Shown: in pieces, positions 6,647 to 63,246 of the stretch
How positions within the stretch are numbered: position 1 is the first letter of the stretch
How the letters are laid out: the number at the start of each line of letters is the position of its first letter
NCBI RefSeq assembly: GCF_029873635.1
Contig: NC_080420.1
Span: forward strand, 123,574,719-123,638,718
From: Malania oleifera
Taxonomy: Eukaryota; Streptophyta; Magnoliopsida; Santalales; Ximeniaceae
DNA: 64,000 nt
Reading direction: 5' to 3'
Program-made: the position numbers and the translations under genes
The notes under the pieces: generated by a model
Database searches by the model: none
What the model saw: the letters and a program-made list of their open reading frames with translations, nothing else
What the model was told of the DNA's origin: nothing

Positions 6647-8921
6647 TGTTGGCCTTACAAGGCTTAAAATCTTGTTTTGATGATAACAAATAAGATGAAC
6701 TTAACATATTTGGTTAAGTGATAATATTCCAGGACTCAAGTATGTGAATACAAAGTCAAATGCTCACAAGGATCATTCAAAGCTCATACTTCAAATAAAG
6801 ATGAACAAATAAAAATGCTTAAAGAGTCAAAGCATGGATTCAAAGATGATTCAAAGCTTGAAGATCATAAGAGAATGGATGTTAAAGAAGACTTTCTAAA
6901 AGCTTAAAGTATTTTAAATCTTGAAGACAAGATAGAGCCAAAGAAAGACAAAGCAAGAGAACCTAAAGAAAAACATGTAGACTTAAGAGTTTAAAATGTC
7001 AAAAGTCATAAGAAGTTTTTATGTAAGTACTTCGTATTTAAATATCTCTTGAAATATATTTGAAACTCTTCTAGGGTTAATTATGGACTTAGAGACCTTA
7101 TTTCAAAATTCGGAAAATATATTATAAGAAATCAAAGTAAGAGAGCACAAATGATTTTGAAAACTAAAATAAAAATTCTAAAGTTGGTCTGCCCAAACGA
7201 CTGAGGTGTATCCTTAGAAGTCTGAAGATTCACCCTCAGACGACTGAAGTTTTACTTTAGACGTTTTGAAGAATTTCTTCAAAATACTGAAGAATTAGTT
7301 CAGTCAACTGAAAATTTATTTGTTGAAACACAGAACAGTTAGAACACCCTCAAAAGACCAAACCCTCAGTTTAGTCATCTGAGCTAGGACTTCAGAAGAC
7401 TGAACCTGAAGTTCAGTTGTCTGACCCTGTGTATAGACTATATTTTTTAATGCTTTAAGGAATATCAGACGACTGAACCCGATAGTTCAGTCGTTTGAAC
7501 ACTGTTATTGGTTAGAAAATTTAAATGTTTTAAATTTCAAATAAAGGTTTCTTGAGCCCCAAAATTAATGAAAACTTGGAAGATACTCTGAGTAAACTTG
7601 GGCAACACAAAATCACTTTTAAAAGCCTATAAATACATGATTTTACAAATCAAAATACACCAAGAACAAAAGAATTGAAAAATCTATTTGTTAACTGAAA
7701 GCTCTTGCTGCTCTCTCTTACTCAAATATTTACTCAACTAATGTGCTGAATTTCTGAAGTACTGGTCATCCCACTACTAAGTTCTGAGTTGCTAATTCTC
7801 ATCTAGCAAGAACTTGGTGAATTCTTCTCTTGAGCTTCAATTGTATTTCATATTGATATTTAATTATTGAAGTACATAGTGATTGAATTTGTACTAATCT
7901 GCTCTTTGTAAGAGTATCATTGTACGCAACTATGTCTTCTTGTTTCTTGATGATTCCAGGTTATTAGATCGTTGACCGAGCGTGGGGTATCGTTTGGAGA
8001 GGTGTAGCTCTAGCCTATTGAAGAAGTGACCGAGTGTGGGGTATCACTTGGAGAGGCTTTGCTCTAGCCTACTTAAGGAGTGTTTGAGCGTGGGGTATCA
8101 CTTGTAAAAGGTTTGTTTCGCCCGGAAAGGAACTACATAGTGGAATCCTTTGGTGGTATTGGCCAAAGACGAGAAAGTAGGCTGAGGATAAGCAGAATCT
8201 TGTAAAAACTCTTGTCTCTCTCTCTTTCCCTTACTCTTTAAATTCCAGCATACTTATAAACTGCGTGGATGTTTTAAATTTCATGATCATAAATACTACG
8301 TAGTTTGGAAATTAAATAAACAGAAGTTTAATTTGTTTTTGGGATTGTGGAAACCGAGAGGGAGTACGTTTGTTGATCAATAATTTGCGGAAACCATAAG
8401 AAAGTATGTTGATTGATAAACACCCAAAGACTCTTTAACTAAAAGTTTATTTAAAGTCTAAGATTTTGGAAAAAGTGTTGAATTTTAAATTGTGCATCAT
8501 ATTGAGAAACAAATTCATAAATACAAGGATTGAATCAAATTCATATACACAGGTATGCAAACAAACAAATACTTTGAATTCTTATAAAAGCTGAGAATTG
8601 TCATAGAGTTGCATAGTATATCTTGTTTTGATCATTTTGATTAAACTGAATTATTGGAAGAATATCTGAAAATCAACAAAGTATTCAAGTTACCTTACTT
8701 ACACTTAATTTTAAAGGTTTATAACTTAATTAATTTTCCACTAAACTTATAAACCAATTTTGTTTATGTTGTGTTAAGTATTGGTTTGTGATTTTAATAA
8801 TTAATTAAGCCTTTCTGGGTATTAGCAGAATTAATAAGAGATCAAAGAATTCATAAAAAGAATTGAAATAAATTTTAATAATCCAATTCACCCCCCCCCC
8901 CCTTTGGGACAATTCCTTAAT
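6647..8921 (+). repeat. 3' LTR of SIRE-like Copia element
   Basis: It starts TGTTGGCC right after the polypurine tract AAAAAGGGGGAGAT. TATA box CTATAAATA at 7627-7635. The U3 at 7190-7500 holds many CAGACGACTGA / TCAGTCGTCTGA-like words. The R-U5 part matches the truncated 5' LTR at 499-1567. It ends near 8921 after a C-run (8889-8901) and TTGGGACAA. The right end is approximate because the terminal CA has decayed. Confidence 0.85.
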
Positions 8922-40856: not shown

Positions 40857-41500
40857 AAAGCACAACTCGCGAGACAACCCAAGAGTAGGGATGACTCACC
40901 AAAAATGACCCATATGATGAACACCACTCATGAGACCCGAATAGATGTCCACTTGATGAGCACAATTCATAACGTAACCTAATAGTGAACACAACTCACC
41001 AAGAATGATCCATCTTATGAGCACCGCTTATGAGGCCCAAAGACATGCCCACTTGAAAAGCAATCCAAAAGTGAGCACAACTCACCAAAAATAACTTATC
41101 TAATGAGCATCGTTCATGAGGCTCAAAGACATGTCCACTTGATGAGCACAACTCAGGAGGTAACCCATAAGAGAGCACAACTCACTAGGAATGGTCCATC
41201 TTATGAGTAACGCTAATAAGGCCTAAAGACATGCCCAATTTATGAGCACAATTCATGAGACAAATCAAGAGTAAGCATAACTCACCAATGATGGCCTATC
41301 TGATGAGTAATGCCCATGAGACTAGAAGACATGCGCACTTGATGAATACAACTCATGAAGCAACCCAGGAGTGAACATGACTCACAATGAATGGCCCATT
41401 CGATGAGCACAGTTCGTGAGGCAACAAAAGAGCATGGCTCACCAAAGCATGGCCCATTTAATGATCACCGCTTATGAGGCCTAAAAATGTATGCTTGATG
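40857..41500 (+). repeat. Minisatellite 1 in Gypsy 3' region
   Basis: Diverged tandem units built from GAGCACAACTCATGAG, CAACCCAAGAGTGAGCAC, AACTCACCAAGAATGGCCCAT, GATGAGCACCGCTCATGAGG and CCCAAAGACATGCCCACTT, with a long period near 130-150 bp and shorter sub-repeats of ACTCATGAG/CTCACCAA. No coding content. Confidence 0.85.
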
Positions 41501-42150
41501 ATAACTACTCAGTATATAGAATTATGTGTTCAGCCAAAAAGTTGTTTAGCAGATAAAAGAATTGCTCAATATATAAAAGAGTTGCTCAACAGATAGAATA
41601 TGCTAAGGAAATAAAAGAGTTGCTCAGCAGATAAAATAACTGCTCAGTACATAAAACAGCTACTTAATAAATAAAAGAGCACTCAGCAGATAAAACTACT
41701 CACAAAATAAAAGAGTTGCTTTATAAATAAAATCTGCTAAAAAAAGTTGTTTAGCAGATAAAAGAGCTACTAAGTAGATAAAAGAGTTGCTTAGCAGATA
41801 GAATCTACTCAGCAAAAGAACTGCTCAGTAGATAAAATAGTCGCTCAACAGATAGAATCTATTCAATATTTTGAATATGCTCAGTAGATAAAATAGCTGC
41901 TTAACAGATAAAAGAACTACTCACTAGATAAAACTACTTAGTAGATAAAAGAGTTGTTCAACAGATAGAATCTACTCGACAAAAAAGATTTTCAGCAGAT
42001 AAAAGCGTTGCTCAACAAATAAAAGAACTACTCAATACATAAAATCTACTTAGAAAAAGAGTTTTTCAATAGATAAAATAGTTGCTTAGCAGATAAAAGA
42101 ACTACTGAATAGATAGAATTACTCAATAGATAAAATATGTTTAACAAAAA
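41500..42150 (+). repeat. Minisatellite 2 in Gypsy 3' region
   Basis: More than 25 diverged units of about 20-22 bp built on CAGATAAAAGAGTTGCTCAG and variants (TAGATAAAATAGCTGCTTAA). It follows directly on minisatellite 1. Such tandem arrays between pol and the 3' LTR are known for Tat/Ogre-type Gypsy elements. Confidence 0.9.
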
Positions 42151-44991: not shown

Positions 44992-45793
44992 TTATACTTG
45001 AAACTAGTCGTTTAAAATTATTAAAAAGCCATTATAAAATATTTCCCCTTACCTACTCCTCGAAATTCGACCAAAAATCAACAAAACAAGACCCTATAAT
45101 TCAGAAATTCCAAATTCCTCAAATCTTAGCAAAACGCCCTTATAACACTATCTAGACTCCAAATGACAATATTTGCTAAGGAAATTCCAAAATAATTCAC
45201 TTACCTTGATTTTGAGATGTTTCCCAAACTACTCAAATCAAAGATCCACTCTGTCTATATTGCAGAGAATCTTCACAGGAGTCTCGTGGTAGCTTCTGAT
45301 CGTCGAACCGAGCTAAATCTGGTCCGGAATCGAAGAGAGAAGGTGGTATGGCCGAAGGCTTTAGAGAGAGAAGGGAAACATGCAGAAATTTCGTGCTGGA
45401 ATGAAAGAAATCCTTATTTATACTCAAGGATTTGTCGATAAGACACGTCAATTCGTCGACGAGACACGTCAATTCGTCGACGAGACACGTCAATTCGTCG
45501 ACGAGACACATCAATTCATCGACGAGACATGTCGATTCGTCGACGAGTCCTAGTACACAGTTTGCCGACGAGACAACCAACTCGTCGATGAATTTCAGTC
45601 ATGCAAAGAATCCCTCTCGGTAATTCCTCGTCGACGAGACACATACCCTTGTCGACGAGCTAAGAAGAACATTCGTCGACAAGACTAGTCTATTCATCAA
45701 CGAATGTTTGCTGCCACCTTTTCGATTTCATTCTTCCTTCCCTTCTATGTTCCTTATTATTTCAAATTATTTAAAAATTTTTGGGTTGTTATA
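44047..45793 (-). mobile_element. Solo LTR, TCGTCGACGA family, copy 4 (left end uncertain)
   Basis: The right end GGGTTGTTATA (decayed TTACA) at 45793 and the minus-strand order palindromes (45425-45710), TATA (GTATAAATAAGG, 45415-45424) and CT-rich leader identify the family. The left end is placed only roughly: CATCACCCGCCC at 44047 could be a decayed TGTCACGCCCC. The flanking GCTAA/GCTTT are weak as a target duplication. Also inside: TCCACACAGGACT-type tandem repeats (44325-44480). It lies next to the previous solo LTR inside the Gypsy element. Confidence 0.6.
45425..45710. repeat. Palindrome array, locally a perfect 21-bp tandem repeat
   Basis: Consecutive 21-bp units GACACGTCAATTCGTCGACGA (45440-45530), then looser TCGTCGACGA words to 45710. 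At least five perfect TCGTCGACGA are present. It produces repetitive frames on both strands (SSTRHVN and VDELTCL) that are not genes. It lies directly upstream of the TATA at 45415-45424. Confidence 0.8.
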
Positions 45794-50579: not shown

Positions 50580-53500
50580 ATGGCTTCGCAGGCAGGTAAG
50601 AGCAGGAGGACTTTTACTCGGGGCAGAGAGATAGCCCTATTTCCTTATCATCTTCAATCTTCTGTTCATAATTTAATGCAACATCCCGCATCACAGGTGC
50701 GAGTGGTGGAGATCTCTGGTCAGAAATCATAGCCATGGAACAAGAACAAGATCAGCAGCAGCAACCTCAAATCGCTGTAATTTACAGAAGAAGAAAACCC
50801 AACAAGGCCCATAAAGATTTAGTAGAACCGTAGGTCTTGGCGGTTAATTTCTAAATCACGACGTTTAATTTCAACCCATGTTTTGTTCTTGCTCCTCAAA
50901 ATTGATCTTATTTGGTCTTCGTTTCTCTCTTTCTTTTTTTTTTTTTTTTTTTTTCAGAATCAAATCCAATCCCAATCCCTGCCATGGGGCTCGGATGAGT
51001 TTGGCTCCCAACAAGCGGGTCAGTTGGAATCGTTCCCTCTCTACCAGGTTAATTTAATCTCTACCCTGATTCCTTAAATTAGCTATCTGCCAATCTAATA
51101 TGCTCCCATTCATTTTTTTTAATGAAATTAATTAGTACTTTAATTTTATTTTTGGCCTTTTAATAATTTAATTAACTTCATTTTCCATGTATCTAATGTT
51201 TACTCTCTGGCCACTAAGAACTATTGCAAATATCTGTGATCAAATAATAGTTAATTTTTTTTTTCTCAAAGTCTAGAATTTGCATTGGAATATTTTAAAG
51301 AAGTGAAAAAATTGACAGAAGAAGACAGATAGTTATAGTTGTGAGATACAACAACAACAACAAATGAAGCCTTAAGTCCCTGTAGGTGGGGTTATGGAAA
51401 TTTGCATAATTGTGGGCAACCTCCTCCAACAATAAGGATTCATAACATAGACATAGAGATCAGTTACCTAATATTTTTCTATTTTGCACTAGTTTTACTG
51501 TTCAACCAGTGCTTCTAAAGAAGTATTACACTGAGTAAAGAAATGGAAACAAAAGTGGGGGAATTTTTTTCTATAAGTGTAGGAGATATCAAATATTGCA
51601 AATTTTATGTTCTTGTTTGAGTTTTAGTTAGTGCTTTGCGTGTTAGGATTTATTTATATTTGATGTTTCTGAATTTTGATTAAACTGATTAATGCAGGAG
51701 TAAGTATTTAGAGATTTGTTTGAATGACACCCAGTTTGTGCGTGGTAGTGCATTAAATGTTTTGTCCTGCTACTTTATGCAGCATTGTCATTTTTTGAAA
51801 TCAATCTGCTGCAGCCCAGTCATATACCTTCAGAAAATTTTGGTTTTCTGCTTGTTAAAATGCATCTTACTAGCAGCTGAGCTGATCTTCTACATAACAG
51901 GTCCCCTAACTGACTAAAATCCAATCTCCCTGCAGTTAGATTGCCTTCATATATTGGTAGCTTTAATTATGGTTTTGAAACTGAATTTCAATGCGAGTTT
52001 CTGAAAAATTTTATCGAATTGTGTTCCCTGCCCATATATATATACTTTTTTGCATGATTAAATGTCACCAGAAATGTATTCTTAGCAGTTAGCACACACT
52101 GTTGCAAATGTATGGCGGCTTACTTTTTATGATTTGGGTGAAAATACATAAAGTTGCAATTTAAGATTTTCATATTTGTGCTTGGCAGAGGGAGGACGAG
52201 CATTGCAATTGCTACATGTGTGGATTATCAGCCTCAACAAAGAAAGCCAAAAAGAAAAGCTAAACCACCTCTTCCCAAAGTATGATCCTCATACTCTTTC
52301 TTTTGTTTCCTAAATTTAATAGATTATGTCCACTGCTTGACTATCATATATTTGAGCAATTTCACTGGCATGTGGTTAATTCACGTTTGGGAAACAGAAA
52401 ATAAGGATAAAAACTGATAAAAAATTGAATTCTGATTTTTCTGAAATTTCCACTACCAATATTATCAGTGTTTTAAGCTATTGCGATTCCTTAATATGCA
52501 TCAAAATTATGTTAGGGGGGAGGTTACATATTTATTACGATTCCTTCATGCTACCTAACGATTTTGCTGTTTACAGGGAAAAGTTGTGCATCTTCCAAAC
52601 TACGAAAGAGAGCGAGCATACTTTGAAGAGGTTGATGCATTTGAATTGTTGGAGGAGAGCCCCTCACCTAAGCACTTTGGTACATGGGCCATGGGCATCC
52701 AACGTGATAGTGTTGCTATACCACCTTTGTCTTCAGTGTTAGAAAAATGGTTAATCTCCAAGAAGTTAAATTACAGTTGTGGACCTTCTCATTCCCTGTC
52801 CAAGATATTAGAAACTTCAGCAATATCAGAGTCAAAAAGCAGTGATGGTTTTGACTCTACAAATGTAAAAACCCCAGAAAAAGCTTCTCAGCAAAGCCAT
52901 AGGGGTGTACATTCTGTTCAGAACATGTTTAATTCCAGTTTCATGAGCAAAAATGTTTTTGAAAGGTGCATGTTTTCAGAAAAGAGCACTGCTGAATCCT
53001 TAAATGCTGGTGATGGCGGTCATGAAGATTTGGAAGTTGCAGTAAAGAAACTCTCTCTTGCATCTCAATCTTCTTCACTCTATAGTGATTACGAGGTGCC
53101 ATTTTCAGCACTGTTAGCAATCTGTGGACAGTCAGCTCCTTCAACGCTATCAGATGCATTCTCTGATTATTGGTTTGTTCTTTTCTTTTTGGAGTTGCCT
53201 ACTAGTTTTTCTTAACAAGTTGCACAGATACCATTTATATATTTTCGTACATTGAGAAAAATACTTGCATAGATACCTAACTAGATATTTTTTTTTCATT
53301 TTCTTAATTAGCTATAATTCTTTAATGGAGTCCTGCTTATTTCTCTGCACCATTCCTGTTGCCTCACCATGTTGCTGCAATGAGCCCTGACAAAATTTCA
53401 TGTAGCTTTTTTCATGTATGGAAACTGGCTTCCAAGTTCCAAGTAAAATTTTGTAGCTACTTAGAATGTTGTAAGATTCTTAATCCTATGTTTGGGAGCA

Positions 53501-56500
53501 TGGAATTCAGACCTTGGATTTGGATTTGTGGATTTAGATAACACGTAGTACAAAATTGTATTGAGTTTCCTCCAAATCCACACAAATTCAAATCCAAGCC
53601 CCAAAAATCCATGCTCCCAAACACTACCTTGAGTTCTTTATTATTTTGTTTTTTGGAATTTTTATCAGTAGACTCTGTTCATTTGGCTTAACTAAGTTTT
53701 ATGTTGCTTTGTATCTTTATGGTCTTTTATTCTCATTATATTTTTTTATTTTTTTTCTTTTTATTTTTATTTTTTTTCATGTCATTCTTTAAAGAAATTC
53801 ACTTACCTATGTTTGGGAGCATGGAATTTGGAACTTCAATTTGGATTTGTGTGGATATGGACAAAATGTGTATGACATCGTATTAAGTTTCTCCCAAACC
53901 CACACAAATCCAAATCCAAGCCCTTAAATCCACACTCCAAAACACTATGGTATTTTTAGAAGAGCATTGTATGAACCAGTTTTGGTTGGAGCAAAAATAA
54001 AAATAAAAGATTGATTCATGTCTTTCCAAAACTGGAATTAGATAAGCAGGCTGCAATATATAGTAGCATAATACAACCATTTCTTGTTGCCTCCACAGAA
54101 GCATGGATTGTCTGACATAATTGCATGATTTATTTTTTGAATAGTACTTAAGGATATGAGGGAGTATACCATAATTGGGCATGGTGGCTTCAAGGTTCAA
54201 CTTTCTCTTTGAATGTTTACGAAGTTTTTCTGAAGATGTTATATATACAAACATGAAAGGCTAAGGAAGCTGTCTATTTTACATAAAATCATCTGAATTT
54301 GAGCGGATATGGACATATCCTTGATAATTAGAGGCCTTCGATTTAATTTCACGTTTATGGCTCTGAACAATGTTGAGTTTTTAAGTTATCATATTTTTCT
54401 TCTGCCTTTTTTCTGTTGGGATGGGGTGGAGGTGAAATTTTATAGGTGTTTTTGTTCTGGGATTTTACTTATATTCATAAATGGTTGTTTAATTATTCTC
54501 AGTTTCTGACACTTTTAATGGATTAGTATTACTTGCCACTCTGCTACTATGTTCTCATCTATTTTTTCAGAAAAGATTTTAGCTGAATGTGGATGTTCCA
54601 TCTGATGCAGTTACTCAGAGGGTATAGTCAAGGTTGGTGAAGGTACATATGGAGAAGCTTTCATGATTGGTAAAACTGTCTGCAAAATTGTTCCAATTGA
54701 TGGTGATTTACGAGTGAATGGTGAAGTGCAAAAGGTATTCATTATAAAATACATATCTTTTTCCAATGGATTATTGTTCCTCTCACCCTCTCTGGATTTC
54801 TGAATCATATTTGGATCAAAATCATCCATTAATATAGAAAATTATTCAGAGCTGAGGGAAGGAGCGATAAAGGTCTATGGAGTTGTCATTCATCGTGTTT
54901 TAGGTTTATTTATTTGTTAGGTAACATTAAGCTGGCTGGTATTCATCAGGGCACTTACCAGGTGTTAGGCTGTTGTAAACACTAACATTGTCTTGCTGCC
55001 TTTCCATGAAAAGCTTCGTGAATGCCAGGAAACTGCCTTTATTAACGCTAACTAGTTCTAGAACTGGAATATTTGAATTTTTTTTTCACATGGATGAATA
55101 ATGATATTGTATTTGGTCAAATGGCATGGTTTGTGGATTATTTAGAAAAGTATGTTTAACATCTTGAAATACAAACTCAGTTTAGTGGGAATATATTTGT
55201 GTAATGGACTTTTTATGTTGTGGTTTACTGTTTTGCAGAGATCAGAGGAATTGCTTGAGGAAGTCATGCTGTCTCACACTCTTAATTGTTTAAGAGGAGA
55301 CGAGGATCAGGTTTATAATGCCTGTACTTCCTTCATAAAAACAATAGAGTATGTTTTCTGCATAACTTGCTTTCTATTACTTTGCAACTAACAGCCAATC
55401 TGAGGTACTGTCATAGCTGGTCAGCCTGTTCGGCTCTCATACTTTTAAAGGGAGTCCCCAGGCCACAAGGCTCCCCGCTTTGCGAGAGTAGGGGGAGGCT
55501 TGTCACGGTGTGTGCAGCTGGCAGCCTTACTCCTGCTTTTTATGCTGAGAGGCTGTTTCCTTGGACTCAAACCATAACCAACCAGTCACAAAGGAGCAAC
55601 CTGACCATTGATCCAAGGCCCGCCCTCTAGCTCTCATACTTTTCTAGCCTGAAGATGAAAAGTTGGAAACAGGTCTGCCATATGTATGTGGTGTCTGGAA
55701 ATAACGAAGAGGAGTTTCCCAAGCTGGCAGTTGGCAAAGTTCTAGGTTTATAGTTGATGTTCTCTTTCATATTTTAAGGCAAGGAGGACAGATAAGCTAG
55801 GTAGAGATTCGTATGCCGAGCCCAAAAAAAAGAGAGGAGAGAGAAAAGGTAGAGAGTCATAGTGAGAATGCTACAGCCTTTGGTTATTTTTTGCATGTTT
55901 ACACAAACGTAACTTAAATAATTAGCATTGTTCCAACTCTGTGAACTCCCTGTTTCTGTTCCTCCATCTCTTCCCCCTCCCTTCTCCACCCAGTCAACTA
56001 ATAATATGTTTTTGACTTTGTGCTTGCATGCATTTATGCTCACTAGTAAATAATAAAATGAGCAATTGTTGTATAATTTAAATATCTGTGATGTAGTTTG
56101 GATTTTTTAAAATCAATTGATAATACGCTTTCGTTGTTTAAAGTTTCTAGTGTTTATAGTTTTATCTTGGACATCTCATGAAGTATCAGATGCATATTAA
56201 AGAAATGTAAAGAGTGTTGTTACATATACAGTAAGAATATAAACAAGATGCTCTTATAGAAAATTTTTAATTCTTATTTTTTGTAAACTTGCTATGTAGT
56301 TATCTAGTGTTACTATACACATTCTAAAATAAACTAGTAATACTGTCACAACTTGTTAGGAATATACGAACAAATTCCCGAAACCTGTGAGAAACAAATA
56401 GAGAAAGAATAACGCCAAAGAAAAATTCAATCACACGCACAAGACAATATTTACGTGATTCGGCAATTTTGCCTACGTCCACGGAGTTGCAGGGATTTCA

Positions 56501-59500
56501 ATATTATCAGGATGAAAGCACAGAGAGTGTGGCGATACAATTCTCTCGCTCTCGCTCTCTCTCGCGGATACAACCACACAAACCCTAATCACCCGAAAGC
56601 ACCCTTTTTATATGTTGCGCCTAGGGTTCCGTTCCGAATGGGCTCCAAAGCCTTCACTCCATGGACTAAGCCTTAGGATAGAAATCTCTAATTAAACAGA
56701 GGTCCGGTCGTCATCCAAATTAAGACACAACTAGGCTCCACAAAAGCCCAACAAATCTCCCACTTGGAGACTAGTTCAATCACCAATATCAACTGCAATC
56801 CTCCTGAAAAACAATCCCTCATCCTTGCAACTCAACCTCCTCTCCTTAAGCTAGAAGACCAACTGAAGCTGCACACAGCTTTAGTTTCTCAATAGTAACA
56901 CCCTTAGTCAACATGTCTGCTGGGTTCTTAGATCCACATATCTTTTCAAGTATTACCAGCTTATCTTCAACAAGGTAACGGATAAAGTGGTATTTTGTTT
57001 GTATGTGTTTCGACTTTGAATGAAAAGCCGAATTTTTGGCAAGAAAAATTGCACTCTGACTGTCACTGTGTAGAATGCCCGTCTTCTGCTTCTTACCCAG
57101 TTCCTCTAAGAAACCATGTAGCCAAATCATCTCCTTTCCAGCTTCAGTTGCTGCAACATACTCAGTTTCTGTAGTAGACAAAGTAACAATCTTTTGCAAA
57201 TTAGAAGCCCAAGATATAGCTATACCACCCAAAGTAAATACAAATCCAGTAGTACTCTTTCTACTATCATTATCACCAGCAAAATCAGCGTCTACATAAC
57301 CCTGTAGTTTCAAACTTGCACCAGTGAAGCAAAGACATGTATTTGATGAACTCCTCAAATATCTTAGAATCCACTTTACTGCCTCCCAATGCTGCTTTCC
57401 TGGCCTACTCATGAATCTACTAACGACTCCCACTGCATGTGCAATGTCTGGCCTTGTACACACCATAGCATACATCAAGCTACCAATAGCTGAAGCATAG
57501 GGCACCTTGCTCATATGGTCCCTTTCTTCTTCTGTCTTCGGTGACTGTTCCTTGCTTAGTTTGAAATGACTCCCCAAGGGTATGTTCACTGGTTTAGATT
57601 CATTCATGTTGAATCTGCTGAGAATTTTCTTCACATACTCTGACTGTGAAAGCTTCAATGTACCAGTAGCCTTGTCTCTAATAATTCTCATTCCAAGGAT
57701 TTGCTTTGCAGCTCCCAAATCCTTCATTGCAAACTGTTCTGACAATTGCTTCTTCAGATTATTAATCTCTTCAATGTTAGACCCTGCAATAAGCATATCA
57801 TCTACATATAGCAGTAAAATGATATAAGAATTGTCAAAGAACTTAACATAACAACAGTGATCAGCTTCACATCTCTTGAACTCAATTTTATGCATAAAGC
57901 TATCAAACTTCTTATACCACTATCTTGGAGCTTGTTTTAGACCATACAAGCTCTTTTTCAGTTTGCAGACTAAATTCTCTTGTCTCTGGACAATGAACCC
58001 TTCTGGCTGAATCATGTAGATGTCTTCCTCCAAGTCACCGTGAAGGAATGCCGTTTTCACATCTAACTGCTCAAGATGTAGATTTTCTGCAGCCACCATT
58101 CCCAGTACCAGTCTAATTGTTGATATCTTCACAACTGGAGAAAATATTTCTGTAAAGTCAATGCCTTCCTTTTGCTGAAACCCTTTGACAACTAATCTGG
58201 CTTTGTAGCGCTTCCTACCATCATGTTCGTTCTTTATTCTGTATACCCACTTGTTATGCAGAGCCTTCTTCCCTACTGGCAATTCAGTTAGTTCCCATGT
58301 CTGATTCCCCAACAAGGAGTCCATCTCATCCTTCATGGCTAACTCCCACTTGCTTGAACTCTTGTCCTGCAAGGCTTCATCATAACACTCTGGCTCACCA
58401 CCATCAGTTAGCAGAAGATAATTTAAAGCAGGTGAATAACGCTGTGGAGGTCTAGTGGCCCTGGAAGATCTACGGACCGCAGCTACAGGTGTAATTTGAA
58501 TTTCCTGCAATTCTACATTCTCCCTATTATCTTCACCCCTTTCCTGGACAGTATTTTAGTCAACTCATCTAAGTTAATAAACTTAGAATTTTTCTGATCT
58601 ATCGCTGTGACATCTGACACTACAGTTGACCTATCCTTGTACATAACCTGTTCGTTAAATATCACATTCCTACTTCTGATGATTTTCCTGTTTTGTTCAT
58701 CCCAAAACCGATAGCCAAATTTCTCATCACCATAGCCAATGAAATAGCATATTTTGGACTTTGCATCAAGTTTACTACGAGCATCAGAATCAACATAAAC
58801 ATAAGAAACACAACCAAAAACTTTTAAGTAAGAAAAATTTACCTCTTTATCGCTCCAAATCTCTTCAGGAAGTCTAAACTCCATGGGAACTGAAGGTCCT
58901 TGGTTTATCAGATAAGCTGCAGTACTGACAGCATCAGCCCAAAAAATTTTTGGTAATCCAGCATGTAGCCTCATACTCCTGGCATGCTCGTTGAGAGTTC
59001 TGTTCATGCGCTCAGCCACACCATTCTGCTGTGGTGTCCCAGGAATGGTCTTTTCCATTTTGATTCCATGTGCAGCACAATACTCTCTGAACCCTCCATC
59101 TATGTACTCTCCTCCGTTGTCCGACCTCAAACACTTTACTTTCAAACCTGTCTCAGTCTCAACCATAGCCTTCCACTTCTTAAAAGTTTCAAATACATCA
59201 TATTTATTTCTCAGAAAATAAACCCATACCTTTCTGGTTGAGTCATCAATGAAAGTAACGTAGTACCTTGAACCCCCAAGGGATGCAACAGGAGAAGGAC
59301 CCCATAAATCTGTGTGCACTAACTCCAATTTTTCAGCCTTCGGTGTTCTGCCACTTTTCAAGAAACTCACCCTTTTCTGCTTTCCTAAGATGCAGCTTTT
59401 ACACAATTCAAAATCAACAGACTTCAATTCCGGCAGTTTCCCTCTTGACAGCAGCATCTTCATCCCCTTCTCACTCATGTGACCAAGTCTGCGGTGCCAT

Positions 59501-62500
59501 AAGCTTGTATCAGTATTTGCTTCAGCAATTGCAATTGTATCTCTTGGACTTGACGTCATGTATAAAGTACCAGATTTCTTTCCACGAGCCAATACTCTGG
59601 CTCCCTTTGTAACCTTCCAAGTGCCACCAGCAAACAACATCGCATGCCCTTCATCATCAAGCTGTCCGACAAAAATCAAATTCCTTCTCAGGTCATGAAT
59701 ATGTCGTACCTTCTCTAGTAACCAAACAGACCCATTTGGCAGTGACATCCGGACGTTTCCCATACCCACAACATCCAAGGCTGTACCATCAGCCAAATAT
59801 ACGTTACCAAAATCTCCTGCTACATAATTCTGTATGATTTCATGGTGTGAAGTAGTATGAAATGAAGCTCCTGAGTCCAAAACCCAATCATCAAGTGGAC
59901 TGTCTACTGCAAGAAGTAGTGCATCCTGTACCTCTTCTGTTACAGCATTAGCGGAATCATCCTCACTCCTCTTCTTAAGACTTTTGCATTGTCTCCTAAA
60001 GTGACCTGTTTTCCCGCAGTTCCAGCATTGTCCCTTTTGGCCAGGTCTGGACTTACTTCTGTTTCGATTATAGTTTCTGGATTTTGATCTACCCCGATCT
60101 GAATTTCGGTCATTACCTCTGCCTCTGGTCTCAAGATTTAGGGCAGAGCCGGATCCTGAGGTTTCGCCTACATCTCTTCTGCGAATCTCCTCAGCCAGAA
60201 TTAAATCCCGTATATCATTATACTTCAGTTTTTTCTTTCCAGTAGAATTGCTTACTGCCATCCTCATTGCCTCCCAACTGTTTGGCAACGAAGCCAAAAC
60301 GATCAGTGCACGAATCTCATCATCAAAATCAATTTCTACCGACGATAATTGATTTGTGATAGTATTGAACTCATTCAGATGTTGTGCTATAGATGCGTTT
60401 TCTGTCATCTTTAAATTAAATAATTTCTTCATCAGATGTACCTTGTTATTTGCTGATGGTTTTTCATACATACCAGATAGAGCCTTCATCAAATCTGCTG
60501 TAGTTTTCTCCTTCACGACGTTGTGTGCAACAGACCTGGACAGAGTTAATCTTATAACTCCCAGTACCTGTCTGTCAAGGAGTGTCCATTCCTCGTCCTT
60601 CATAGTAGCAGGTTTTTCTCCTAGAAGCGGTAGATGTAACTTCTTCCCATAGAGATAATCCTCGATCTGCATCCTCCAGATTCCAAAGTCTGTGCCGTCA
60701 AACTTTTCTATTCCAGACGCCCTTCCTACTTCCTCTGCCATTGCTCCCACTCGAACCTAACCCTAGGCTCTGATACCAGTTGTTAGGAATATACGAACAA
60801 ATTCCCGAAACCTGTGAGAAACAAATAGAGAAAGAATAACGCCAAAGAAAAATTCAATCACACGCACAAGACAATATTTACGTGGTTCGGCAATTTTGCC
60901 TACGTCCATGGAGTTGCAGGGATTTCAATATTATCAGGAAGAAAGCACAGAGAGTGTGGCGATACAATTCTCTCGCTCTCGCTCTCTCTCGCGGATACAA
61001 CCACACAAACCCTAATCACCCGAAAGTACCCTTTTTATATGTTGCGCCTAGGGTTCCGTTCCGAATGGGCTCCAAAGCCTTCGCTCCATGGACTAAGCCT
61101 TAGGATAGAAATCTCTAATTAAACAGAGGTCCGGTCGTCATCCAAATTAAGACACAACTAGGCTCCACAAAAGCCCAACACAACTATCCTTTTTTAATTT
61201 AATCTCTAGTGTTGTTCTTAAAATCAAAAATTTAAAAGGGAGTTATATCGTGTATATGAATATATCATATCATGTGAGGGAATTCTTTTTTCATGTGAAC
61301 ATTAAAAATTTTAAATAAATTTATTATTGATTTTATTATGTAAAATATGCTTTGAAAATATTAGACTATTTTTGAATAGCATGTATAGATATAATAGTTT
61401 GTTATATGACAAGAATGTACAAGGTGTTTTGAAAATCTCAAAATTACTGTTTTCTAAAAGAATATTTCCATTTTTATTTTCATGTCTATGTATCCTACTT
61501 TTGATTTTTTTTTCAGTTAACGATTAATTGGTGAGTATTTTTATAATTTAAAATTAATTTTACTTTATTATCTGAAAGATATTTCTGAATTTATGAACTT
61601 ATTATAATATTCATTATTACTATTTAGAGGTTAGATTTATTATTTGTCTGAACTCTATTAGAATTTTATCTAAATTTGTTTGAACTTTATTATTTTAAAG
61701 AGTGTTTTATCCTACTTCTAAAAGATAAGATAAGGATATTTTTGTCTCAAAAGGATTTGCACTATTCTTATTTCTATATATAGCATAGACATGTGTATGA
61801 GAAAGCAAAAGATAGAGCAAGGAAGGAAGTTTAATTCAATGCTTTTGACATAAATATTTACAATCTTGTTCTGCAGTTTAAGGGTCTGAATCTATGATTT
61901 TGACATAAATATTCATGATCTTGTTCTGCAGTTTAAGGGTCTGCCGTGGCAGTTATGATGCTGCCCTGATAAGAGCATGGGAAGATTGGGATGAAAACCA
62001 TGGTTCAGAAAACGATCATCCTAAGGAGTTCCCAGAGAAACAGGTTTTTTGGTTCTTTTCTAAGTTGGTTTTTCTGCATAAATGTGATTTTATGCTTTAG
62101 TAGATATCCATCTCCCTACATGAAGATGTTTTTGGGTTCTGTTTTTTCCTTTTCAAACTAAAATGGTCCAGAAATGAGTATTTTCTTTTTGGTTATCTGT
62201 TAGTGTAAGGTCTATTGGTGGTAATGCCAAAAGCTTGGCTTCAAATCTCCTTGTGAATTTGAATGCTAATTGTCCTTCAACCCTGATCTACTGGTTGCCT
62301 ATCTTAAAAATTTCTCTTTCAATTGTACTTCAAAATCAAACGTAGTAACTATTAAGCTTTGATGATCATTAACCACAGTGACAAGGATTACTATTTTACA
62401 TTTTACAAGCTGCGTAAGTTTCTTTTTAGATTGCTTTACTTAATAAATGTAATGAAATTTCCCGCAGTGCTTTGTTGTGTTTGTTCTTGAACATGGCGGC

Positions 62501-63246
62501 CAAGATCTTGAAAGCTTCGTGCTCTTGAATTTCAATGAAGCAAGAAGTTTGTTGGTTCAGGTGAACTGCAGATCCTCTTGATATTTCAGTCCAGTTTACA
62601 AAATCTATTGTTGTATAACTATTGTTGCTGCACTCATTCCTTGTGCAATGCAGGTTACTGCTGCCTTGGCTGTGGCAGAAGCTGCATACGAATTTGAACA
62701 CCGGGATCTGCACTGGTTAAGTTGTCATGCAACATAAGGTTGTAATGGGGCTTTGCTTTGCATGACTGCCCATTTAGAATATTCTTTTTTTGTCACAGGG
62801 GGAACATCCTTCTAAGTCGTAAAGAGTCTGAAACATTACAATTCACCCTTGAGGGAAGGCACTTGTCCATAACCACATTTGGACTGTTCATATCAATAAT
62901 TGACTTCACCCTATCCAGAATTAATACCGGTAAATATTTGTGCATTTGAAACTTGTAATTATTATAATATGCCACATCTGAGGTCAACTCTTTGTTGCTG
63001 ATTCATCATGCTGAACAAGCTTTCTTTGTGAACAGGAGAAGACATACTTTTTCTCGACTTATCTGCAGATCCAGAACTATTTGAGGGTCCAAAAGGGGAT
63101 AAACAAGTAAGAAAATGCAAAATAAGTTGTAAACATTTTTAAGTATTCCATTTTTCGCTCTTGCACCAAACTGATGTCCAATATTATCTGCAGTCAGATA
63201 CATATCGCAAGATGAAGGAGATAACTGAAGACTACTGGGAAGGAAG
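50580..63246 (+). CDS. HASPIN: HASPIN histone H3 Thr3 kinase (3' end outside window)
   Basis: Family role: atypical kinase phosphorylating histone H3 Thr3 at mitotic centromeres. Exons: 50580-50595, 50697-50829, 50958-51047, 52189-52279, 52577-53172, 54611-54734, 55239-55348, 61932-62043, 62468-62560, 62654-62715, 62799-62929, 63036-63106, 63194-63246. All GT-AG and in phase, 560 complete codons. ATG 50580 was chosen as first Met in phase with DLWSEII, which the plant family has near its start. Seen: RRRKP and SLSTRG motifs, [22 protein letters not shown], glycine loop GEGTYGEAF 318-326, Lys334 (CKIVPI), HRDLHWGN with Asp473, and IIDFTLSR with Asp511 where most kinases have DFG. EDYWEG is the last block seen; the final ~40-70 residues (the RTNVLWL region in relatives) are not before 64000. 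Intron 7 (6.6 kb) contains a Copia element. Confidence 0.95.
51048..52188. other. HASPIN intron 3
   Basis: 1.14-kb GT-AG intron. At 51346-51420 ACAACAACAACAA...GAAGCCTTAAGTCCC resembles a fragment of a plant SINE tail or body. Otherwise unremarkable T-rich intron sequence. Confidence 0.6.
53489..53623. mobile_element. 135-bp MITE in HASPIN intron 5, copy 1
   Basis: Almost fully palindromic: TGTTTGGGAGCATGGA at the left and its complement TCCATGCTCCCAAACA at the right, with inner arms TTGGATTTGGATTTGTGG / CCACACAAATTCAAATCCAA. Flanked by CTA on both sides (53486-53488, 53624-53626). Superfamily not certain; a 3-bp duplication fits PIF/Harbinger-like elements but the usual TTA/TAA is not seen. 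Confidence 0.85.
53810..53944. mobile_element. 135-bp MITE in HASPIN intron 5, copy 2
   Basis: Same length, ends and CTA flanks (53807-53809, 53945-53947) as the copy at 53489-53623, with scattered differences; its right TIR is more decayed (CCACACTCCAAAACA). It begins 186 bp after the end of copy 1. Confidence 0.85.
55447..55629 (-). mobile_element. Au-like SINE, antisense in HASPIN intron 7
   Basis: On the minus strand it runs from a tRNA-like head (A-box region ATCAATGGTCAGGTTG, B-box region GGTTATGGTTTGAGTCC) through AACAGCCTCTCAGCATAAAAAGC and GCAAAGCGGGGAGCC to the 3' end. A 14-bp target duplication GCTCTCATACTTTT flanks it (55433-55446, 55630-55643). Confidence 0.9.
56354..56753 (-). 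repeat. 3' LTR of Copia element
   Basis: 400 bp; in element orientation it starts TGTTGGGCTTTTG and ends TCCTAACA. It contains a CG/CT-rich stretch (GCGAGAGAGAGCGAGAGCGAG on the minus strand). The small plus-strand frame at 56455-56676 is an LTR shadow. Confidence 0.97.
56846..58560 (-). pseudogene. Copia RT-RNase H, one stop codon and upstream frameshift
   Basis: Second part of the polyprotein. The RT runs from about 58370 ([29 protein letters not shown]) through [14 protein letters not shown] to YVDDM near 57800 and DADFAGD...RKSTTGF (RNase H, about 57290), ending at 56846. One in-frame TAG at 57920-57922, where APRQWY is usual, splits it into two ORFs in the same frame; a Gln codon has become a stop. 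The join to the upstream ORF (58513-60750) needs a frame change near 58540-58560. All major RT and RNase H motifs are still present. Confidence 0.92.
58513..60750 (-). CDS. Copia gag-protease-integrase ORF (745 aa)
   Basis: Long intact ORF of the Copia element. Gag at the N-terminus ([18 protein letters not shown], residues ~15-190), zinc knuckle [14 protein letters not shown] (~242-255), protease active site LDSGASFH (~291-298), GAG-pre-integrase/HHCC ([15 protein letters not shown] to CKSCILGKQ, ~415-455), and integrase core with [24 protein letters not shown] and [10 protein letters not shown] (~480-600). It ends early because of a frameshift before RT. This is transposon protein, not a host gene. 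Start ATG 60750 lies 17 bp inside the PBS. Confidence 0.93.
60767..60778 (-). other. Primer binding site of Copia element
   Basis: Minus-strand TGGTATCAGAGC, two bases from the inner edge of the 5' LTR, complementary to the 3' end of plant initiator Met tRNA. Confidence 0.9.
60781..61180 (-). repeat. 5' LTR of Copia element
   Basis: 400 bp, same ends as 56354-56753 and five substitutions by eye, no indels. In element orientation it drives transcription toward lower coordinates, against the HASPIN transcript. Confidence 0.97.
61843..61943 (+). repeat. Tandem duplication of HASPIN exon 8 splice acceptor
   Basis: Two 46-bp copies (61843-61888, 61898-61943) with a 55-bp period. Each contains TTTTGACATAAATATT, CTTGTTCTGCAG and the first 12 exon bases TTTAAGGGTCTG. 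The second copy continues into the true exon (CCGTGGCAG...). The first is followed by AATCTATGA, so splicing there (exon start 61877) would give four codons and an in-frame TGA. Both acceptors look equally good by eye. Confidence 0.93.

Follow-up and report, generated by a model that had tools for sequence, protein, structure and literature searches.

HASPIN intron 7 in this plant ends in two abutting copies of a 55-nt unit that spans its boundary with exon 8, and this local duplication alters which splice sites the intron offers. The reading that we favor, with a probability of roughly two in three, is that an old duplication has been tolerated as a roughly neutral change. The downstream site would be the productive one, while use of the upstream site would be minor and wasteful and would not constitute a regulated switch. 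Coordinates are positions in the window, that is, the whole 64-kb stretch of DNA that was analyzed, and continue on the same scale beyond its end.

HASPIN gene model and copy number

The gene model comprises 15 exons from 50580 to 75198 (window scale), with 14 GT-AG introns and an open frame of 624 aa that runs to the stop. The exon numbering of the initial annotation, in which the exon at the duplication is exon 8, was right, as exons 1 to 7 occupy 50580 to 55348. Exons 14 and 15 were located with what we take to be the C-terminus of Arabidopsis HASPIN; they fit the HASPIN frame and end in a stop.

50580..63246, plus strand: HASPIN exons 1 to 13 (exons 1 to 7 at 50580-55348)
55349..61931, plus strand: HASPIN intron 7, 6583 nt long; subtracting the Copia element and one copy of its target site leaves about 1751 nt
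61932..62043, plus strand: HASPIN exon 8, 112 nt
74863-74929 and 75073-75198 (window scale, beyond the window), plus strand: HASPIN exons 14 and 15

The marks of a haspin kinase were all present. The protein encoded by exons 4 to 13 matched PF12330 with 129.9 bits (cut-off, 25), the part from exons 5 to 13 matched human haspin (2vuw) with an E value of 2.4e-53, collinear across the exon 7/8 junction, and the HRD and DFT motifs lie at residues 471 and 511 of the 624-aa protein. When the exon 4 to 13 protein was compared with the 1.49-Gb genome, all nine matches with E values up to 0.001 among the best candidates scored were HASPIN's own exons. A genome search with PF12330 gave 41 matches at E values up to 10, and among the best candidates scored, the HASPIN locus alone passed the family cut-off. 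Because both searches point to this locus alone, HASPIN appears to be single copy in this plant, and neither search yielded, among the best candidates scored, a paralogue or retrocopy that could serve as an internal control. No relative of the HASPIN protein turned up in one scan of contigs from prokaryote genomes. According to the passages cited from PMC3113928, haspin is encoded by one gene in most organisms and in some plants and by two in soybean and Medicago; the same passages state that no Arabidopsis knockout line was found and that the authors considered embryo lethality possible.

Two further features of the gene were observed. Intron 13 (63247-74862 on the window scale, running past the window) is 11,616 nt long, and introns 9 to 12 and 14 measure 83 to 143 nt. 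A short stretch of exon 5 (52613-52657) resembles Sororin_C (PF25220) with an E value of 0.0004 and 20.7 bits, under the cut-off of 27.4; as the kinase is linked to cohesion, such a sororin-like motif may merit attention.

A 55-nt tandem duplication crosses the intron 7/exon 8 boundary

Direct reading of the sequence from 61829 to 61943 revealed the two copies at a spacing of 55 nt. When they are aligned so that both end on the exon side, 49 of 55 positions are identical; a repeat-finding program, in its own register, scored them as 85% alike. Each unit joins 43 nt of the intron side to 12 nt of the exon side, and both abutting copies therefore hold an intron 3' end and an exon start. The initial annotation had described a 46-bp tandem duplication over the polypyrimidine tract, the AG and the first 12 bases of exon 8. 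Such a duplication is present, and 46 nt holds as the size of its better-conserved core (61843-61888 and 61898-61943; 43/46 identical), but not as that of the tandem unit, which is 55 nt, as the copies abut.

61834..61888, plus strand: upstream copy of the 55-nt tandem unit, with branch-site candidate, pyrimidine tract, CTGCAG and 12 nt of exon 8 sequence
61889..61943, plus strand: downstream copy of the unit, matching the upstream copy at 49/55 positions; the real exon 8 starts with its last 12 nt
61875..61876, plus strand: upstream AG; the exon would start at 61877 and read DLRV-stop, 390 aa
61887..61889, plus strand: in-frame TGA after use of the upstream AG
61930..61931, plus strand: downstream AG; exon 8 starts at 61932 and the haspin frame is kept

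Both copies contain a TTGAC branch-site candidate (A at -29), a pyrimidine tract, CTGCAG and the first 12 bases of exon 8, with no AG between the TTGAC candidate and the AG of CTGCAG. The 26 nt from -14 to +12 around the AG are the same in the two copies, and all six differences lie outside them, which bears out the earlier description of near-identical acceptors 55 bp apart.

The duplication is beyond chance. When 61501-62400 was shuffled 200 times, no 46-nt self-match exceeded 30, and within 400 nt of the 13 other HASPIN acceptors no second copy scored above 26/46. Across the whole 64-kb window, a search for 46-nt stretches with at least 41 matches at shifts of 30 to 300 nt returned six clusters, the HASPIN acceptor duplication being one of them. 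That the duplication is an assembly error is hardly credible, given the six mismatches among the 55 aligned positions; moreover, a 214-base stretch is present once in the assembly.

The window holds other repeats as well. At 40894-42136 lie long, degenerate tandem arrays whose nested periods are about 20, 54, 100 and 186 nt. Closely similar 54-nt units form two separate arrays, at 624-749 and 7973-8104, that are probably parts of one repeat family, and a 21-nt unit is repeated 5.6 times with 90% matches at 45430-45547.

The two acceptors would specify different products

Splicing to the downstream AG neither adds nor removes a coding residue relative to the haspin alignment, and the normal frame that had been claimed for this site indeed gives a product collinear with human haspin. 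With the upstream AG, the mRNA gains 55 nt and exon 7 is followed by DLRV and a TGA four codons past the junction. The resulting product, earlier put at about 390 residues, has exactly 390 and, as had also been claimed, ends before both the HRD motif (471) and the DFT motif (511). Its exon 4 to 8 part found no match to PF12330 at an E value of 0.001, whereas the exon 4 to 13 protein made with the downstream AG does match.

Between the upstream-AG stop and the next junction are 154 nt, and seven junctions lie downstream of the stop. Under the exon-junction rule, nonsense-mediated decay follows when a stop precedes an exon junction by more than about 50 nt. This distance is exceeded here, and by this rule the upstream-AG mRNA should be a decay target. 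Since the acceptors are equivalent and the upstream one leads to a premature stop, it is a fair prediction that some HASPIN transcripts may be non-productive.

Evidence on which acceptor is favored

Several features count for the downstream site. GC content over positions +1 to +50 is 28% after the upstream AG, the lowest of the 15 acceptors tabulated, versus 52% after the downstream AG and 36 to 52% after the other 13; introns are usually richer in AU than exons, as stated in the cited part of PMC4974935. A full exon stands behind the downstream AG, and only 12 nt of exon sequence stands behind the upstream one. The introns flanking exon 8 measure 6583 and 424 nt, and for human 3' sites of equal strength the preference for the upstream site was significantly reduced where both flanking introns were long, as given in the cited part of PMC9225289.

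Taken further, the GC step and the exon context could mean that the upstream copy is a silent relic whose AG is practically never used. We regard this as unlikely, since the two copies share the same branch-site candidate and the same 14 intron bases ahead of the AG, and each candidate is followed by its own AG with no other AG in between. In human data on 3' sites separated by 20 nt or more, the upstream site is favored overall, and the same holds in classical in vitro competition, according to the cited part of PMC9225289. A small matrix built from the 13 other acceptors scored the upstream site at 9.4 and the downstream site at 8.0, the 3rd and 10th ranks among the 381 AGs of intron 7; the other acceptors, left out one at a time, ranged from -4.1 to 13.0. 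Predicted accessibility, upstream versus downstream, was 0.38 versus 0.57 for the branch region, 0.35 versus 0.32 for the tract and 0.57 versus 0.45 for the AG. Neither the local matrix nor predicted accessibility discriminates the two acceptors, with the matrix leaning slightly upstream. Intron definition is generally held to matter more in plants. For this reason, because of the leaning of the matrix, and because the human data and in vitro competition favor upstream sites, use of the upstream AG could be substantial; minority use of 61877 is an estimate, not a result.

We also considered how the differences between the copies are distributed. All six fall within the first 29 of the 55 positions (p = 0.016, post hoc), whereas on the core all three fall in the first 20 of 46 positions (p = 0.075, not significant), and the p value varies with the point chosen as the start of the unit. 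This clustering could hint, weakly and post hoc, at constraint on the upstream acceptor. Together with two locally equal acceptors, an immediate stop and seven junctions beyond it, the 26 unchanged nucleotides around the upstream AG would suit a regulated poison acceptor, in which a controlled 61877/61932 ratio sets HASPIN dosage through nonsense-mediated decay. The loss of significance on the core speaks against this, as does the finding that the best matches in the open-licence PubMed Central literature included no plant HASPIN splice switch. We consider regulation of this kind quite improbable, and slightly more so its fuller form, a lineage-specific poison acceptor that arose from the old duplication, was kept by selection and sets the amount of a mitotic histone kinase through the site ratio. 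The kinase-dosage switch proposed in the initial annotation found no support, the sign of constraint on the upstream copy being weak and post hoc.

Age of the duplication and the Copia element

Intron 7 also contains a Copia element, as had been noted previously.

56354..61180, minus strand: Copia-type LTR element in intron 7, antisense, with 400-bp LTRs at 56354-56753 and 60781-61180 and CAACT on both sides

Its LTRs align with 5 mismatches in 401 columns (about 1%). The copies of the duplication are more diverged (6/55 versus 5/401; Fisher p = 0.0007; core 3/46, p = 0.04), and the duplication is therefore probably older than the Copia insertion, unless conversion or unequal constraint distorts these divergences. 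If so, intron 7 would have been about 1.75 kb long when the duplication arose. The Copia element was set aside as the cause of the duplication, because by divergence the duplication is the older of the two, and the link between them looks coincidental. Given its greater divergence compared with these LTRs, the duplication has probably persisted for a long time while HASPIN stayed intact. The Copia coding stretch falls into three stop-to-stop frames of 747, 211 and 357 codons, so that the element looks interrupted.

A tolerated duplication as the best explanation

In the explanation that we favor, an old 55-nt tandem duplication arose across the intron 7/exon 8 boundary of what is apparently the only HASPIN gene. 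Because branch site, pyrimidine tract, AG and exon start would have been copied together, the copy that adjoins the exon would have remained a complete acceptor. This downstream copy would make the normal HASPIN mRNA, as its observed frame and collinearity suggest, and the upstream copy would act as a second acceptor with the same local sequence, probably used in a minority of transcripts. Transcripts spliced to the upstream AG, with their stop four codons past the junction, would be removed by nonsense-mediated decay, and the arrangement would be tolerated as nearly neutral. A harmful duplication should not last in such a gene, given that the absence of an Arabidopsis knockout allows for embryo lethality (PMC3113928, cited passages).

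The collinearity obtained with the downstream site, the PF12330 match, the open 15-exon model and the apparent single copy all support a tolerated duplication. The local equality of the two sites, the lean of the matrix to the upstream site and the human upstream bias count against it.

Comparison with known systems

A tandem duplication across an intron-exon boundary is already published. In the cited part of PMC4974935, such a duplication in potato RdRp is described as having made a new intron, with supporting RNA-seq reads. Among the best matches in the open-licence PubMed Central literature on duplicated acceptors, duplicated splice sites or duplication-born introns, no HASPIN case was found. 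By that description, potato RdRp resembles HASPIN in being a plant gene whose duplicated unit contains a branch site, a pyrimidine tract, the 3' AG and an exon start; its copies differ at ten positions, those of HASPIN at six. It differs in that a cryptic donor derived from the exon produced the new intron, whereas the exon part of the HASPIN unit is 12 nt long and has no usable donor, so that the duplication would yield a second acceptor only.

The potato precedent raises the reading that HASPIN shows the beginning of an intron gain, in which the exon sliver of the upstream copy turns into a mini-exon and the downstream copy into a new intron. Of the three GT/GC positions in the 55 nt, however, 61884 (AGG/GTCTGA) alone gives an intron of more than 9 nt; this intron would be 48 nt long and would leave a 7-nt insert whose frame shift leads to a stop at codon 398. 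The possible introns are 48, 9 and 4 nt, all leading to a premature stop, and the duplicated exon part offers no usable donor for a spliceable intron. We rejected an intron gain as in potato on size and frame and hold it to be very remote. For intron gain in Drosophila, nonsense-mediated decay has been proposed as a shelter for imperfect new splicing, according to the cited part of PMC2809761.

Unproductive splicing coupled to nonsense-mediated decay is known from poison sites. The HASPIN case is similar in that use of the upstream site would place a stop far before the last junction, and different in that its upstream acceptor is a putative site known from sequence.

One implication of the arrangement is that an apparently single-copy cell-division gene can tolerate having one of its acceptors crossed by a duplication. 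Another is that the HASPIN acceptors, which lie 55 nt apart, share every base from -14 to +12 and have a branch-site candidate apiece, form a natural splice-site competition. Set in a plant gene, and with an outcome that is easy to score, this competition could reveal what the plant spliceosome prefers when local signals are equal. Close counterparts are the competing human 3' sites that are equal in strength and separated by 20 nt or more (PMC9225289, cited part), which likewise each have their own branch-site candidate and tract and serve one exon; their usage was measured, whereas the upstream HASPIN site is a predicted site in a plant.
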